A stretch of DNA of 10,000 nt from Nitrospira sp. (GTDB lineage Bacteria; Nitrospirota; Nitrospiria; Nitrospirales; Nitrospiraceae): positions 1 to 10,000 of the forward strand of contig JAIWOH010000023.1 of NCBI GenBank assembly GCA_020216985.1, read 5' to 3'. A program made the position numbers and the translations under genes. Below, piece by piece: positions 1 through 4,609 of the stretch (position 1 is the first letter of the stretch; every line of letters begins with the position of its first letter). The notes under the pieces were generated by a model. That model was not told the origin of the DNA, did not search any database, and saw only the letters and a list, made by a program, of their open reading frames with translations.

Positions 1-1734
1 TACGATCTCGTGATCATGGGAGCCCTGGGGGTGGGGGCCGTCAAGGAGAGCGTGATCGGCAGCAACACGGAGCGGGTGGTCCGTCGCGTGCGCAACTCCG
101 ACATGTTGATCGTCAAAAACGTCCAACCGATGCAGACGGGTAAGATCGTGGTCGCAGTCGACGGCAGTCCCTATTCGTTCGGCGGCCTGATGACCGCCCT
201 GCAACTCGGCAAGGCATTCGATATGCCGGTCGAGGCGATCTCCGCCTTCGACCCCTATTTTCACTACGCCGCCTTTCACAGCATTTCCGGCGTCCTGAAC
301 GAGGAAGCCGGGAAGGTGTTCCGTTTCAAAGAGCAGGAAAAGCTGCACGAAGAAATCATCGACAGCGGCTTGGCCAAAATCTATCAGTCGCACCTCGACA
401 TTTCCCGTGAGATCGCTCAGGCCGAACAATCGGATCTGAAGACGACCCTCCTCGATGGAAAAGCGTTTGAGAAGATCATTCAATACGTCCGCAAAGACGT
501 CCCGGCCCTGCTGGTCGTCGGCCGGATCGGAGTGCACAGCGACGAGGACATGGACATCGGCAGCAACACGGAAAATCTGCTGCGCAGCGCGCCTTGTAAC
601 GTTCTCGTCTCGAACAGAAAGTACGTGCCGCCGATCGATACGCAGGCGGAGTACACCATCGCCTGGACGGAAGAAGCCCTCCGCCGTATGGAAAAGATCC
701 CCGTCTTCGCCCGCGGAGTCGCCAAGACCGCCATTCACCGCTATGCGATCGAAAAGGGCCACACGATCATCAGCAATACGGTTGTGGACGCGGCGGTCGG
801 TCACATCCTGCCCAAGGGAGCCATGGAGGCCATGCGGGCGCTGGGCGGAAGTCTTGATCAAGCCGGTATCGATCGGAACAAGATGCAGGCCGACGACGCG
901 GTGGCGCAAGACCTGATGGGCGCGACTTTGAGCGGCATCATGACGCAAATCGTCGAGGAGAAGCCCAAGACGTCTGACTCGACGCAGGCCTATCTGGATC
1001 GCATGAGTCAAAATTATTTCGTGTGCGACGGCTGCGGCTACATCGGAAAAGGGGACACGCCGGTGAAATGCCCGGTCTGCGGCGCGGACGGCGCGCGATT
1101 CAAACAAGTGGACAAGACGATCTTCGAAGCGGCGGCCCAAGCCGAAGGGGGGCTGGAAACGGACGTGGCGTATGACGACGTCCCCATGCAGTGGACCAAA
1201 GACGCAAAAGAAGCCATCCGGGCCGTCCCGGCCGGCTTTCAGCGGCGGCGGGCCAAGGCCAAGATCGAGAAGACCGCCCGCAAACTCGGCATGACCACCG
1301 TCACCTTGGAATTTGCCGCCCCCATGATTAAAGAGGCGGCGTCGGAGGAGTACCGTCCGATTTTCTCCAACAAGGGAACGGGAATCTCCTCGGAGGCGGC
1401 AGCCAAACTGGGAATTGCAGGAGGGGAAACCAACTTAAGCGGCAACGGCGCCCATGGCCTTGATGAAACGAAGGGCCAACAGCAGGCCGACACTTCCCCC
1501 TATACCTGGACCGCGGAGGCGCAGGCACGGCTGGAACGGGCTCCGGAAGGCTTCATGCGGGACTGCACAAAGGCTTTGATTCTGAAACACGCGGAAAAGA
1601 TCGGCGTGACCCATATTACGCTGGAAGTCGCCAACGAAGGGATCGAGCAAGCCAAAGGCTACATGGCCGAGGCCATGAAAACCGGCAATCTCAAGAGCAT
1701 GATCGCGGACCTGACCGGAAAAGGGCGCGCCTAA
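1..1734 (+). CDS. Universal stress protein with rubredoxin-like knuckle and three PCP_red domains (5' truncated)
   Basis: The frame is open from base 1, and the first residues (YDLVIMGALG) are the end of a UspA domain, so the true start lies upstream. Residues below count from the GTG at base 10. The first Usp domain ends at about residue 40. A complete second Usp domain spans about 43-205. Both keep the nucleotide-binding spacing G-x2-G-x9-G-S (Gly4, Gly7, Gly17-Ser18 and Gly171, Gly174, Gly184-Ser185), so ATP-type binding is likely. A PCP_red domain follows (about 215-265, Trp219). Then comes a four-cysteine knuckle (Cys339, Cys342, Cys354, Cys357), like the metal site of rubredoxin or a zinc ribbon. 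Two more PCP_red domains follow (Trp395 and Trp500). PCP_red is known from the C-terminus of protochlorophyllide reductase subunit B. No signal peptide or membrane segment is visible in this part, so it is probably cytoplasmic. The domain calls are firm. The function is unknown; binding of a tetrapyrrole or redox partner is inferred. Confidence 0.88.
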   Translation, partial: YDLVIMGALGVGAVKESVIGSNTERVVRRVRNSDMLIVKNVQPMQTGKIVVAVDGSPYSFGGLMTALQLGKAFDMPVEAISAFDPYFHYAAFHSISGVLNEEAGKVFRFKEQEKLHEEIIDSGLAKIYQSHLDISREIAQAEQSDLKTTLLDGKAFEKIIQYVRKDVPALLVVGRIGVHSDEDMDIGSNTENLLRSAPCNVLVSNRKYVPPIDTQAEYTIAWTEEALRRMEKIPVFARGVAKTAIHRYAIEKGHTIISNTVVDAAVGHILPKGAMEAMRALGGSLDQAGIDRNKMQADDAVAQDLMGATLSGIMTQIVEEKPKTSDSTQAYLDRMSQNYFVCDGCGYIGKGDTPVKCPVCGADGARFKQVDKTIFEAAAQAEGGLETDVAYDDVPMQWTKDAKEAIRAVPAGFQRRRAKAKIEKTARKLGMTTVTLEFAAPMIKEAASEEYRPIFSNKGTGISSEAAAKLGIAGGETNLSGNGAHGLDETKGQQQADTSPYTWTAEAQARLERAPEGFMRDCTKALILKHAEKIGVTHITLEVANEGIEQAKGYMAEAMKTGNLKSMIADLTGKGRA

Positions 1735-1801
1735 CTCATCTCGCATCATCTCTTCATGATACGGCTCCGGAGAGGCTTCCTTCGTCCTACGTCTTATTCC
1801 G

Positions 1802-1814
1802 CCTGCGCAGCAGG
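1802..1814 (+). promoter_or_regulatory. Small hairpin covering a possible ribosome binding site
   Basis: CCTGC and GCAGG pair perfectly around a GCA loop. The 3' arm contains the AGG of the AGGA that would serve TTG 1825. In a read-through transcript from the upstream gene this stem could hide that site. The five-base stem is short, so a regulatory role is only a possibility. Confidence 0.2.
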
Positions 1815-1819
1815 ACGAC

Positions 1820-1825
1820 TATAAT
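1820..1825 (+). promoter_or_regulatory. Exact TATAAT -10 element just ahead of the radical SAM gene
   Basis: The hexamer TATAAT lies 8 bases before ATG 1834, in otherwise GC-rich DNA. A transcript from it would begin around 1831-1834, giving a very short or absent leader and excluding the TTG 1825 start. No good -35 box is seen 16-18 bases upstream (TTCCGC at 17), and there is no TG extension. It may therefore be weak or a chance match. Confidence 0.35.
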
Positions 1826-1833
1826 TGACTCGC

Positions 1834-3198
1834 ATGGGCAAATCGCTTCCTATTCTAAATCCATCCCCTGCGCCGGGTTCTCCACCGTTCCAGAGTGTGG
1901 GCGACCGCTCGCCTTCGCCGCTTCGGGACGGACGAACCGTCGATGACTTCAAGCCTTATCTCGTCGCACTCAACCTGACCAAGCGGTGCAATCTGAAGTG
2001 CGACCACTGCTATCTCGACGCCACCACCAGGGCGTCTGGCGGTCATGACGAACTGTCCACCGAAGAATGTTTCCGACTGATCGATCAGATCGCCGAGGTC
2101 AACAAAGGCTGTTTGCTGGTCATCACGGGCGGCGAGCCGCTGGTGCGGCCGGACATCCTCGACATCGCCCGCTATGCCGTGAACGCCGGCTTCATGGTCG
2201 TCCTGGGGACGAACGGGATGCTGATCGACGATCGGATCGCCAAAACCCTGGTCGAGATCGGCGTGATGGGGGTGGGCATCAGCATCGACTCGCTGGACCC
2301 GGCCAAACACGACGCGTTCCGCGGCATTCCGGGAGCGTGGAACGCCGCGGTCGCCGGCATCGAAGCCGGCAAGCGCAACGGTCTTCAGTTTCAAATTCAT
2401 TTCAGCGTCCAGCCTATGAACTACCGGGAACTACCCGAGGCCATCGAATGGGCCCATCGGCTCGGAGCCCGCGTGTTCAACGTGTTTTTCATGGTATGCA
2501 CAGGGCGAGGAGAAGAACTGACCGATATCACGCCGGCTCAGTACGAAGAGGCGCTCGGCTATCTGGTCAATTGCCAGGACAATTACAAAGGCATGCTGGT
2601 CCGCGCCCGATGCGCGCCGCACTTCAAACGGCTGGCCTATGAGAAAGATCCGAATTCTCCCCTCACCAAAGCAACCGGCTACATGGGCGGCGGCTGCCTG
2701 GCCGGCACCAACTATGCTCGCGTGACCCCGAACGGCGAATTGACTCCCTGTCCCTATATGCCCCTCTCGGCCGGGAATGTGCGGCAGCATAGTTTTGTGG
2801 ACCTGTGGAATCACTCCGACATTTTCAACTCGTTCCGTTATCCTCAACTCAAAGGCAAATGCGGAGACTGTGAGTATTCGGATATTTGCGGGGGGTGCCG
2901 CGCGCGCCCTTACGTGGATCACGGCGATTGGTTGGATGAAGATCAGTGGTGTCTGTACACCCCCAAGGGCGGCGAAAAGATCAAAGTGGCGTTCAATACG
3001 CCGGAAGACGCCCCGATCCAATGGGACGACGCATCGTCGGTGCGTCTCGGCCGTATTCCTTATTTCCTGCGAGCCATGGTGAAAAAGGGCGTCGAAAAAC
3101 ACGCCCGGGAAAATAACATCTCACTGATTACCGTCGAGCTAATGGAAGAGTTGCGCAAGAAGCGATTCGGCAACGACGCGCCGGTCTTTAAGTTTTAG
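1834..3198 (+). CDS. Radical SAM/SPASM protein, NirJ/AhbC/AhbD-like, with C-terminal PCP_red domain
   Basis: Radical SAM enzyme of 454 residues. The CxxxCxxC site for the SAM-binding 4Fe-4S cluster is Cys52, Cys56, Cys59, and the GGE motif is at 99-101. The SPASM-type region for auxiliary Fe-S clusters has Cys288, Cys306, Cys343, Cys346, Cys352, Cys355 and Cys373. The segment DICGGCRARPY resembles the haem d1/alternative haem enzymes NirJ, AhbC and AhbD. After that region, residues about 395-447 (Trp397) form a PCP_red domain like those in the gene upstream. The first 35-40 residues are Pro/Ser-rich and look disordered. ATG 1834 is chosen as start. TTG 1825 is the alternative: it has an AGGA nine bases upstream and would add three residues. 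The gene lies 99 bases after the stress-protein gene on the same strand. Tetrapyrrole side-chain modification is a reasonable guess, but SPASM enzymes also modify peptides, so the substrate is open. Confidence 0.87.
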   Translation: MGKSLPILNPSPAPGSPPFQSVGDRSPSPLRDGRTVDDFKPYLVALNLTKRCNLKCDHCYLDATTRASGGHDELSTEECFRLIDQIAEVNKGCLLVITGGEPLVRPDILDIARYAVNAGFMVVLGTNGMLIDDRIAKTLVEIGVMGVGISIDSLDPAKHDAFRGIPGAWNAAVAGIEAGKRNGLQFQIHFSVQPMNYRELPEAIEWAHRLGARVFNVFFMVCTGRGEELTDITPAQYEEALGYLVNCQDNYKGMLVRARCAPHFKRLAYEKDPNSPLTKATGYMGGGCLAGTNYARVTPNGELTPCPYMPLSAGNVRQHSFVDLWNHSDIFNSFRYPQLKGKCGDCEYSDICGGCRARPYVDHGDWLDEDQWCLYTPKGGEKIKVAFNTPEDAPIQWDDASSVRLGRIPYFLRAMVKKGVEKHARENNISLITVELMEELRKKRFGNDAPVFKF

Positions 3199-3280: not shown

Positions 3281-3790
3281 ATGGACGCTTTCCAACAGAT
3301 CTTTTTTGATCTCAACACGCTCATTCCGATTCTCAATCATTGGCTCCACCTTCTCTCGGCGGTGGTCTGGATAGGCGGCCTCGCTTTTCTTGTGTTGGCG
3401 GTCACGCCGGGCCTTCAAGCGGCCGTGCCGAAGGAGCAGGTCAAACCGATCACGGACGTCTTCTACCGCCACTATAAGAAAGTGGCGGGCATTCTCCTGG
3501 TCGTCCTTCTGTTTACCGGCGGCATCAATCTGCACTATGTCAATCAGGTCATCACGTCGCAAACCGGCGCCGGCATGCAGCATCACGCCAAGTATCTGAT
3601 CGTTTTTTGCATCAAATTGCTTCTCGTGCTCGGTCTTCTCACGCTTTTTTTGTACACCGTGATTTTTAAATCCGATGACCAAGCCGAAGAGGGCGAGACC
3701 TACGAGGTCATTCCGTTTCAGCGCGCCGCGCTGTGGATGGGATTTTTTATCGTGTTGTGCGCCGCCGCGATGAAGCACCTGCATCTTTGA
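3281..3790 (+). CDS. CopD-like four-helix membrane protein
   Basis: Protein of 169 residues with four predicted inner-membrane helices at about 19-42, 68-88, 104-129 and 149-165. The first helix carries HWLHLLSAVVWIGG, a pattern typical of CopD-type copper-resistance domains and related small haem- or metal-binding membrane proteins. Histidines in or near the helix ends (His20, His23, His64, His85, His101, His102, His166) could bind haem b or copper. This is inferred from position only. The ATG start has AGGA ten bases upstream (3267-3270). The gene follows the radical SAM gene by 82 bases on the same strand and may be co-transcribed, although small hairpins lie between. There is no CopC or copper chaperone in view, so copper uptake is uncertain. 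A membrane haem protein serving the neighbouring radical SAM system is an alternative. Confidence 0.75.
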   Translation: MDAFQQIFFDLNTLIPILNHWLHLLSAVVWIGGLAFLVLAVTPGLQAAVPKEQVKPITDVFYRHYKKVAGILLVVLLFTGGINLHYVNQVITSQTGAGMQHHAKYLIVFCIKLLLVLGLLTLFLYTVIFKSDDQAEEGETYEVIPFQRAALWMGFFIVLCAAAMKHLHL

Positions 3791-3847: not shown

Positions 3848-4609
3848 TCATCGCGAACGCTTCGGATCGGACCACGCCCGTTTGAAAACCGTTCTGAGGC
3901 CGAAATAGCCGATCGAGTCCTTCAGATTCGAGTAGAGCCGCTTGATCGGATTCATGTCCGAATTCGTCACATACTCCATCGTCAGCACGATCCGTTCTTC
4001 TCCTTCTCCGAGAGGCGTGACGGCGTGCCAGAGCTTGTCGCCGTTGAAAATCACCAGGTCGCCGGGCTCGGTGACCAGTTCAAGATGACGGAGCGGTTTC
4101 GTCGGATGATTTTTGAAGAGATCGCATACCAACTTGCAACACGTTGACCGGTCGACCAACCCCATTAAAATCGTATAGCGCGCCCCCTTGTAATACGACG
4201 TGTCATAGTGAAATCCGATGTGGTCGCCGGGCTCCGTGTAGTAGTAGAGCGCGCATGCGTGCGGATCATTGTCCGGGCAGACCATCACGTGCGCATCGGT
4301 GAGCCGATTGAGGAAACGTTTGAACGACTCCGAGCGGTAGATGTCCAAAAAACGAGGCGCTTTTTCCTGAACCGTATAATAACTGACGCTTCCGCCTTTC
4401 TTATGGCCGGGAATATAGTTGCGATTGAGTTCGCCCTTCACGCCCTGCGCCTGCGGCACCAGGACCTGTTCCACAAAGGCCCGCGGCAAAAATTGCTTGA
4501 TAACCAGAAACTCTTCCTGATCCCAATACTCCCCGTGTAGCCGGTCGAGATCCAACGCCGCCACCGCTTGATCGACCGCCTCCACCACGGTGTATGCTTC
4601 GCGTATCAT
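3848..4609 (-). CDS. 2-oxoglutarate/Fe(II)-dependent oxygenase (prolyl-4-hydroxylase-like)
   Basis: Soluble protein of 253 residues with a double-stranded beta-helix oxygenase core. The iron site is HxD (His134, Asp136 in GFHYDTSYY) plus a distal His195. Arg206, eleven residues later in RIVLTMEY, is the expected 2-oxoglutarate carboxylate ligand. Asp136 is kept, so this is a hydroxylase-type site; Fe/2OG halogenases replace that residue with Ala or Gly. Several cysteines (Cys111, Cys119, Cys157, Cys158, Cys162) lie around the core. The substrate cannot be told from sequence; a protein side chain or small metabolite are both possible. The ATG has a good GAAGGG site nine bases upstream. The gene lies 136 bases after lolA on the same strand, with a hairpin in that gap, so it probably has its own transcript. 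It converges on the CopD-like gene with 57 bases between, where I see no convincing terminator. Confidence 0.85.
   Translation of the reverse strand: MIREAYTVVEAVDQAVAALDLDRLHGEYWDQEEFLVIKQFLPRAFVEQVLVPQAQGVKGELNRNYIPGHKKGGSVSYYTVQEKAPRFLDIYRSESFKRFLNRLTDAHVMVCPDNDPHACALYYYTEPGDHIGFHYDTSYYKGARYTILMGLVDRSTCCKLVCDLFKNHPTKPLRHLELVTEPGDLVIFNGDKLWHAVTPLGEGEERIVLTMEYVTNSDMNPIKRLYSNLKDSIGYFGLRTVFKRAWSDPKRSR

Follow-up and report, generated by a model that had tools for sequence, protein, structure and literature searches.

A conserved pair of Nitrospirota genes shares PCP_red domains: a tandem universal stress protein and an AhbD/NirJ2-like radical SAM enzyme

The stretch of DNA analysed here, 10,000 nucleotides of Nitrospira sp. 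that we call the window (contig C56 of a 2.26 Mb draft genome made up of 222 contigs), opens with two adjacent genes that together encode four PCP_red domains (PF08369): a universal stress protein (Usp) gene, Usp-PCP, and the gene for a radical S-adenosylmethionine (SAM) enzyme, rSAM-PCP. The identity of these domains, the conserved linkage of the two genes, the fusions among their relatives and the separateness of the enzyme from the AhbD of hem operons are observed directly. Both genes belong to a conserved Nitrospirota system of proteins that share PCP_red and are grouped around a radical SAM enzyme paralogous to AhbD and NirJ2. The reading that we favour overall, to which we give about an even chance, is that PCP_red holds these proteins together by docking and that the enzyme works on a tetrapyrrole. 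We know of no phototroph among the bacteria that carry the system, and we found no prior description of it in word searches of the open-access literature, which leaves out most subscription papers. The two genes and their parts lie as follows.

1..1734, plus strand: Usp-PCP gene, of which the window has 577 codons; Usp domains, three PCP_red and one rubredoxin-like domain
19..63, plus strand: first Usp ATP-type motif, G-x2-G-x9-G-S, by pattern match
520..564, plus strand: second Usp ATP-type motif, by pattern match
664..795, plus strand: PCP_red copy 1 (PF08369, 54.3 bits, E 3.8e-14)
1018..1104, plus strand: rubredoxin-like domain whose cysteine pairs are CDGC and CPVC (PF21349, residues 340-368)
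1192..1326, plus strand: PCP_red copy 2 (PF08369, 43.0 bits, E 1.3e-10 over 1192-1314; local profile, residues 398-442)
1507..1638, plus strand: PCP_red copy 3 (PF08369, 34.4 bits, E 6.3e-8 over 1507-1632; local profile, residues 503-546)
1834..3198, plus strand: rSAM-PCP gene, from ATG 1834 in a frame open from TTG 1825, with radical SAM, SPASM and C-terminal PCP_red domains
1987..2010, plus strand: CNLKCDHC, a motif match to the radical SAM C-x3-C-x2-C (C49, C53, C56)
2860..2952, plus strand: auxiliary C-x2-C-x5-C-x20-C, by motif match (C340, C343, C349, C370 of the 451-residue frame)
3022..3156, plus strand: PCP_red copy 4 (PF08369, 51.9 bits, E 2.2e-13)

The four domains are true PCP_red domains. 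An earlier note on this DNA had proposed them from the letters alone, and in a PF08369 profile search 4/4 scored above the curated cut-off (34.4-54.3 against 32.5 bits); scanned as whole proteins with Pfam, the Usp gene gave a total of 109 bits over three stretches and the rSAM protein 48 bits over one. The tryptophans by which the copies had been named were also right (their codons begin at window positions 664, 1192, 1507 and 3022), with Trp219, Trp395 and Trp500 fitting a count from the GTG at 10 and Trp397 one from the ATG at 1834; if the open frame is numbered from its first residue, the Usp tryptophans become 222, 398 and 503. The matches exceed chance, because a control search of 14 genomes at E <= 1e-4 matched only Synechococcus elongatus (at a loose E <= 10, 9 of the 14 matched and one exceeded the cut-off). 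The window holds no chlorophyll genes, as had been noted, and genome-wide BchN and BchL lay outside our search set. The window copies belong to the same domain family as the PCP_red of BchB/ChlB (solved as 2KRU and 2L09). The setting differs: copies of the domain are found here on Usp, radical SAM and repeat proteins, and the match to the BchB models is confined to their final ~50 residues. The full-length BchB/ChlB model scored 66.6 bits against a cut-off of 509, over profile residues 478-529 of 535 only, and none of the five PCP_red proteins of the genome gave a Pfam match to a nitrogenase-type domain.

Those five genes carry 12 PF08369 matches, 11 of them above the cut-off. Beyond the window they are PCP4 (contig C58), with three copies above the cut-off and one divergent copy; ZnPCP2 (C59), with two copies and a CxxC-rich N terminus; and a two-copy protein on C98. 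PF08369 occurred in 39/39 relatives' genomes, at 3 to 13 matches each and 11 in most of the same genus, and in 84 of 158 Nitrospirota genomes. A match to the rSAM protein at E <= 1e-70 was present in 117 of the 158, and 59 of these 117 extended to query residue 440 or beyond, that is, into PCP_red; one genome not among the matches, G170, also has rSAM-PCP (locus L178). Databases label Nitrospira PCP4 proteins (P0260, P0273 and others) 'PCP reductase family protein', 'Light-independent protochlorophyl...' and the like, which is misleading as to phototrophy. Among 293 unique PCP_red copies, 52 representatives (<70% identity) conserved W1 (98%), A5 (94%), R8 (82%), L9 (75%), P13 (100%), F15 (86%), R17 (84%), E25 (88%), A28 (96%), G32 (84%), I/V36 (99%) and T37 (78%). 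A structural model of PCP4 (pLDDT 70.2, pTM 0.53) consists of helix-helix-helix repeats with short strands, and its best Foldseek matches were the solved PCP_red domains 2KRU and 2L09, at probabilities of 1.00 and 0.99 but E values of 0.12 and 0.84.

The two genes are closely linked. We examined the best 80 of 245 confirmed relatives as named loci, which come from Nitrospira or close kin (one is labelled Nitrosospira), the nearest being Nitrospira metagenome-assembled genomes with protein identity up to 98%. The rSAM gene carries PCP_red in 80/80 of these loci and has Usp directly upstream on the same strand in 77/80, the other three being contig edges; that Usp has three PCP_red copies in 75 of the 77, and one and two copies in the remaining two. 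A second set of 37 further loci (L and P numbers denote loci and proteins, and f1 to f26 the genome families of our Nitrospirota survey) has the rSAM gene in 34, with the same Usp-rSAM order in 29 and one locus cut by a contig end (L151). Independent occurrence, which would have spoken against a joint role, was seen in only 4/34: L026 and L027 (f4), L144 (f8) and L158 (f26). Some arrangements are tighter still: in L178 (f7) a Usp with five PCP_red is followed by rSAM-PCP, PCP4 and a CopD-like gene; L143 (f6) packs Usp-PCP3, rSAM-PCP, PCP4 and ZnPCP2 into 8 kb, together with a Haem_oxygenas_2 protein, a NUBPL/ParA-type ATPase, a DUF420 protein and a multidomain cytochrome c; and in f16 rSAM-PCP and PCP4 form a single polypeptide (P0105, P0107 and P0113; loci L152-L154). 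This adjacency, operon, cluster and fusion evidence bears out the earlier suggestion that the two genes act together, which we consider very probable. In f24 and f25 the Usp beside rSAM-PCP has two Usp domains and no PCP_red (by Pfam in L155 and L157, by local profile in L156), so the partnership appears not to require that Usp carry PCP_red and may predate the spread of the domain.

The enzyme itself scored 83.9 bits for Radical_SAM and 40.1 bits for SPASM in Pfam. Its top models were NirJ2 at 322.6 bits and AhbD at 316.3, both under the cut-off of 500 (TIGR04055 and TIGR04545, respectively), and the peptide maturase WgkB followed at 145; in four other rSAM-PCP members NirJ2 and AhbD again came top, under the cut-off. 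The cysteines of AhbD and NirJ are present in both the radical SAM and the auxiliary motif, the latter having been described for NirJ (PMC10548856, partial text). In deeper Nitrospirota, AhbD-type genes without PCP_red have hemE adjacent in 8 of 11 fetched loci, and hemH also in 4, as judged from sequence starts; profiles confirmed hemE, hemH and hemY in L168, hemE in L173 and hemH in L171, whose AhbD-type protein itself falls short of the AhbD cut-off, at 445. No such hem-gene neighbourhood surrounds rSAM-PCP, whose neighbours are Usp, mpqE and the CopD-like gene. Moreover, all six f24-f26 genomes that have rSAM-PCP contain a second, AhbD-type match, and in a tree of 39 sequences, to which a long-branch warning applies, 11 AhbD-type proteins separated from 28 PCP-type proteins at 100/100. 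Judged by its sequence, rSAM-PCP is a paralogue of the AhbD/NirJ2 haem enzymes, and it is separate from the AhbD of hem operons. It resembles them in its radical SAM plus SPASM build and in its C-x3-C-x2-C and C-x2-C-x5-C-x20-C motifs, and differs in its extra C-terminal PCP_red, in having a Usp partner instead of hemE/hemH and in its separate clade.

Usp-PCP is a universal stress protein by the same kinds of measure. Its Usp match reached 76.2 bits (PF00582, cut-off 24), and it has two copies of G-x2-G-x9-G-S, which we take to be the ATP-type motif of the family; its RUBY_RBDX match reached 27.4 bits (cut-off 26.5). Among the matches listed, 120 orthologous proteins (P0121-P0240) had at least two copies of the ATP-type motif in 120/120 and a relaxed form of the four-Cys rubredoxin-like pattern likewise in 120/120, a tighter form of the latter matching just 20/120. 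What the protein has in common with universal stress proteins is the Usp domains with their ATP-type motifs; unlike the usual Usp, it has three PCP_red and a rubredoxin-like domain, and stands beside one radical SAM gene. The contig start truncates the 5′ end of the gene. An open frame with 123 first codons of a Usp terminates contig C55 (L162:9632-10000), and 123 + 577 gives 700 amino acids, the length of the ortholog P0122, from which we infer that C55 and C56 adjoin.

The members of the system are the radical SAM/SPASM enzyme, an AhbD/NirJ2 paralogue with one PCP_red; the tandem-Usp protein, which has ATP motifs, three PCP_red and in most cases a rubredoxin-like site; and, in Nitrospira, three further multi-PCP_red proteins. 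PCP_red would be the shared docking module that joins the enzyme, the ATP/iron protein and the other PCP proteins, a role that we regard as probable. Like its AhbD/NirJ relatives, the enzyme may have a tetrapyrrole as its substrate, one resembling coprohaem or haem; the rubredoxin-like site may supply electrons, and the product or its delivery may serve the bd-type cytochrome and cytochrome c complexes encoded beside PCP genes. These three steps together stand at roughly even chances, as does the broader suggestion that tetrapyrroles are the system's business. We favour a tetrapyrrole-linked docking module because the enzyme is AhbD/NirJ2-like, because a ChdC-like fusion occurs in f17, and because bd-type cytochrome genes are neighbours.

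The fusion consists, in the one protein scanned with Pfam, of an N-terminal PCP_red (54.5 bits) and PF06778 (69.2 bits); its best match in the Protein Data Bank was a coprohaem decarboxylase (E 9e-10), and the closest NCBIfam model for its ChdC-like part was HemQ_actino, at 56.2 bits where 235 is the cut-off. A single PF08369 match was present in each of fifteen f17 genomes, and a local profile found PCP_red with the ChdC-like domain in all eight loci fetched (L190-L197). The protein shares this domain with ChdC/HemQ and departs from them in its N-terminal PCP_red and in the degeneracy of the ChdC-like part: 8/8 of the fusions align to Nitrospira ChdC but lack the Tyr and His, the catalytic and proximal residues, that are conserved in four aligned Nitrospirales ChdC proteins. 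It is possibly a regulatory or binding pseudo-enzyme. As for the cytochromes, the order DUF420, PCP2, membrane protein, CydA-like recurred in 8/8 loci (our genome's L011, and L202-L208 of f1 and f3), with CydA-like confirmed as PF01654 in L011 and L207. In L209 (f15) the surroundings of another PCP2 protein include a PF01654 gene as well as genes resembling those of cytochrome c; a PF01654 gene lies near rSAM-PCP in L157, and cytochromes c with a partial or Pfam-negative PF01654 relative lie near it in L149 and L153. In f24, hemL is directly upstream of Usp-rSAM in L155 (12244-13533), and a small PCP_red protein stands near cbiD and cbiE in L161 (9617-10000).

Several observations weigh against a tetrapyrrole role. 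No His or Cys is conserved in PCP_red among the 52 representatives, and Met19 is present in 59%. The enzyme lies under the NirJ2 and AhbD cut-offs, and the AhbD cut-off was reached in 0/11 genomes. The loss of Tyr and His from the f17 fusion implies that its ChdC-like domain may bind no haem; f9 and f17 have PCP_red without rSAM-PCP; in Nitrospira the pair is preceded by mpqE and no haem gene; and no cytochrome-oxidase-like neighbour was seen in f5, f7, f8, f10 or f24 loci, several of which are on short contigs. Haem synthesis, moreover, looks to be served by other genes, which argues against direct haem binding, and partner docking alone would explain the distribution of PCP_red. A direct porphyrin site in the domain strikes us as unlikely; that two near-invariant arginines meet propionates is speculation. 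The earlier suggestion of a tetrapyrrole- or partner-binding module fares accordingly in two ways: partner binding agrees with the docking role, and tetrapyrrole binding draws on the presence of PCP_red on BchB, on the AhbD/NirJ2-like enzyme and with a ChdC-like domain, and on the bd-type cytochrome neighbours, against the want of a conserved His or Cys.

The same points raise the alternative that PCP_red is a mere protein–protein docking tag, that the enzyme modifies something else, such as a peptide, and that the links to haem are inherited or coincidental. Besides the lack of a conserved haem ligand and of Tyr and His in the f17 domain, this would fit the presence of PCP_red on proteins without a known tetrapyrrole (Usp, PCP4) and the identity of the enzyme's solved relatives by sequence and fold, PqqE, SuiB, SkfB and anSME, whose substrates are peptides or proteins (peptides being what most SPASM relatives modify); the best fold matches of our rSAM-PCP model (pLDDT 71.7, pTM 0.70) were PqqE, SuiB and SkfB. 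Set against it, NirJ2 and AhbD outscored the peptide maturase WgkB by far, and bd-type cytochrome neighbours recur in several families, so we hold it to be somewhat unlikely.

A more specific alternative is that rSAM-PCP is the terminal haem synthase, converting coprohaem to haem b. We searched up to 35 genomes with haem-pathway profiles; HemF lay outside the search set. HemN above its cut-off was found in 6/35 and in none of the f1 (8/8) or f3 (6/6) genomes, and f5 and f14 had neither HemN above the cut-off nor PF06778, HemF not having been searched for; with an AhbD-like enzyme, these gaps would suit a haem synthase. However, PF06778 was present in 20/35 genomes, namely all 18 of f1-f4, f8, and f17 (as the PCP_red fusion), and the ChdC-type protein of our own genome matched solved coprohaem decarboxylases (E 1e-25). 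Because ChdC-type proteins occur in 18/18 f1-f4 genomes, rSAM-PCP is not needed there as a general haem synthase, a further point against a haem role; with the separate AhbD-type gene in the f24-f26 genomes, this makes the alternative highly improbable. HemE was found in 18/23 genomes, AhbC above its cut-off in 0/23 and PF17805 in 0/23, and ferrochelatase HemH (PF00762) in 5/11, all five of f1. PF00762 was not found in 6/6 f3 genomes although hemE and hemY are adjacent (L028, L029, L030).

The genes upstream suggest yet another possibility, that the operon belongs to methyl-plastoquinone synthesis and that Usp-PCP and rSAM-PCP serve one of its steps. On C55, mpqE (L162:8572-9348) precedes the window's Usp gene on the same strand, separated from it by 283 bases, and 62 of the 64 named loci with room for it likewise have a same-strand mpqE; the MpqE profile gave 414.1 bits in N. 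defluvii, against a cut-off of 335. Nitrospira makes methyl-plastoquinones (PMC12324825, partial text). In 55 of those 64 loci, mpqE shares its strand with a gene for a B12-binding radical SAM protein that resembles cyanobacterial slr0320 (L109:5152-7715; 446.4 bits against a cut-off of 775); in the window's genome this gene does not lie between mpqE and Usp. Slr0320 has been suggested to methylate plastoquinone (PMC8065906, partial text), and the protein is a candidate C-methyltransferase for methyl-plastoquinone. In f3 and f5-f8, however, mpqE is on another contig or far off; the pair occurs in f10 and f14, where a search at E <= 1e-90 gave no mpqE; and f9 and f17 have mpqE-type genes and no rSAM-PCP. 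A role in quinone synthesis is, on this distribution, very unlikely.

Downstream of the pair lie two further genes.

3281..3790, plus strand: small membrane protein like CopD/DUF4149 (PF05425 21.8 bits, under the cut-off of 32.1)
3848..4609, minus strand: protein matching Pfam HalD (40.7 bits against a cut-off of 26)

The first likely belongs to the same operon as the window pair: of the 77 named loci that have Usp upstream, 76 hold a same-strand homologue. The second, matching a halogenase of the Fe/2-oxoglutarate type, has homologues at three further loci of Nitrospira.

PF08369 is treated as a marker of photosynthesis, being among the most prevalent Pfam families of phototroph genomes and used for pre-screening (PMC12815261, partial text), yet all 39 relatives' genomes searched have it. 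The system offers a concrete set of partners for probing the role of the C-terminal domain of BchB. A wider conjecture is that PCP_red serves tetrapyrrole enzymes in general as a recruitment module, with no special tie to chlorophyll, and that Nitrospirota make or deliver a modified haem for bd-type cytochrome complexes through a PCP_red system whose centre is the AhbD/NirJ2-type radical SAM enzyme and whose ATP/iron partner is Usp; it seems to us rather doubtful. The bd-like oxidases of nitrifiers are, to our knowledge, little understood; if the system works on haem, these widespread nitrifiers would have an additional step of cofactor maturation or delivery.

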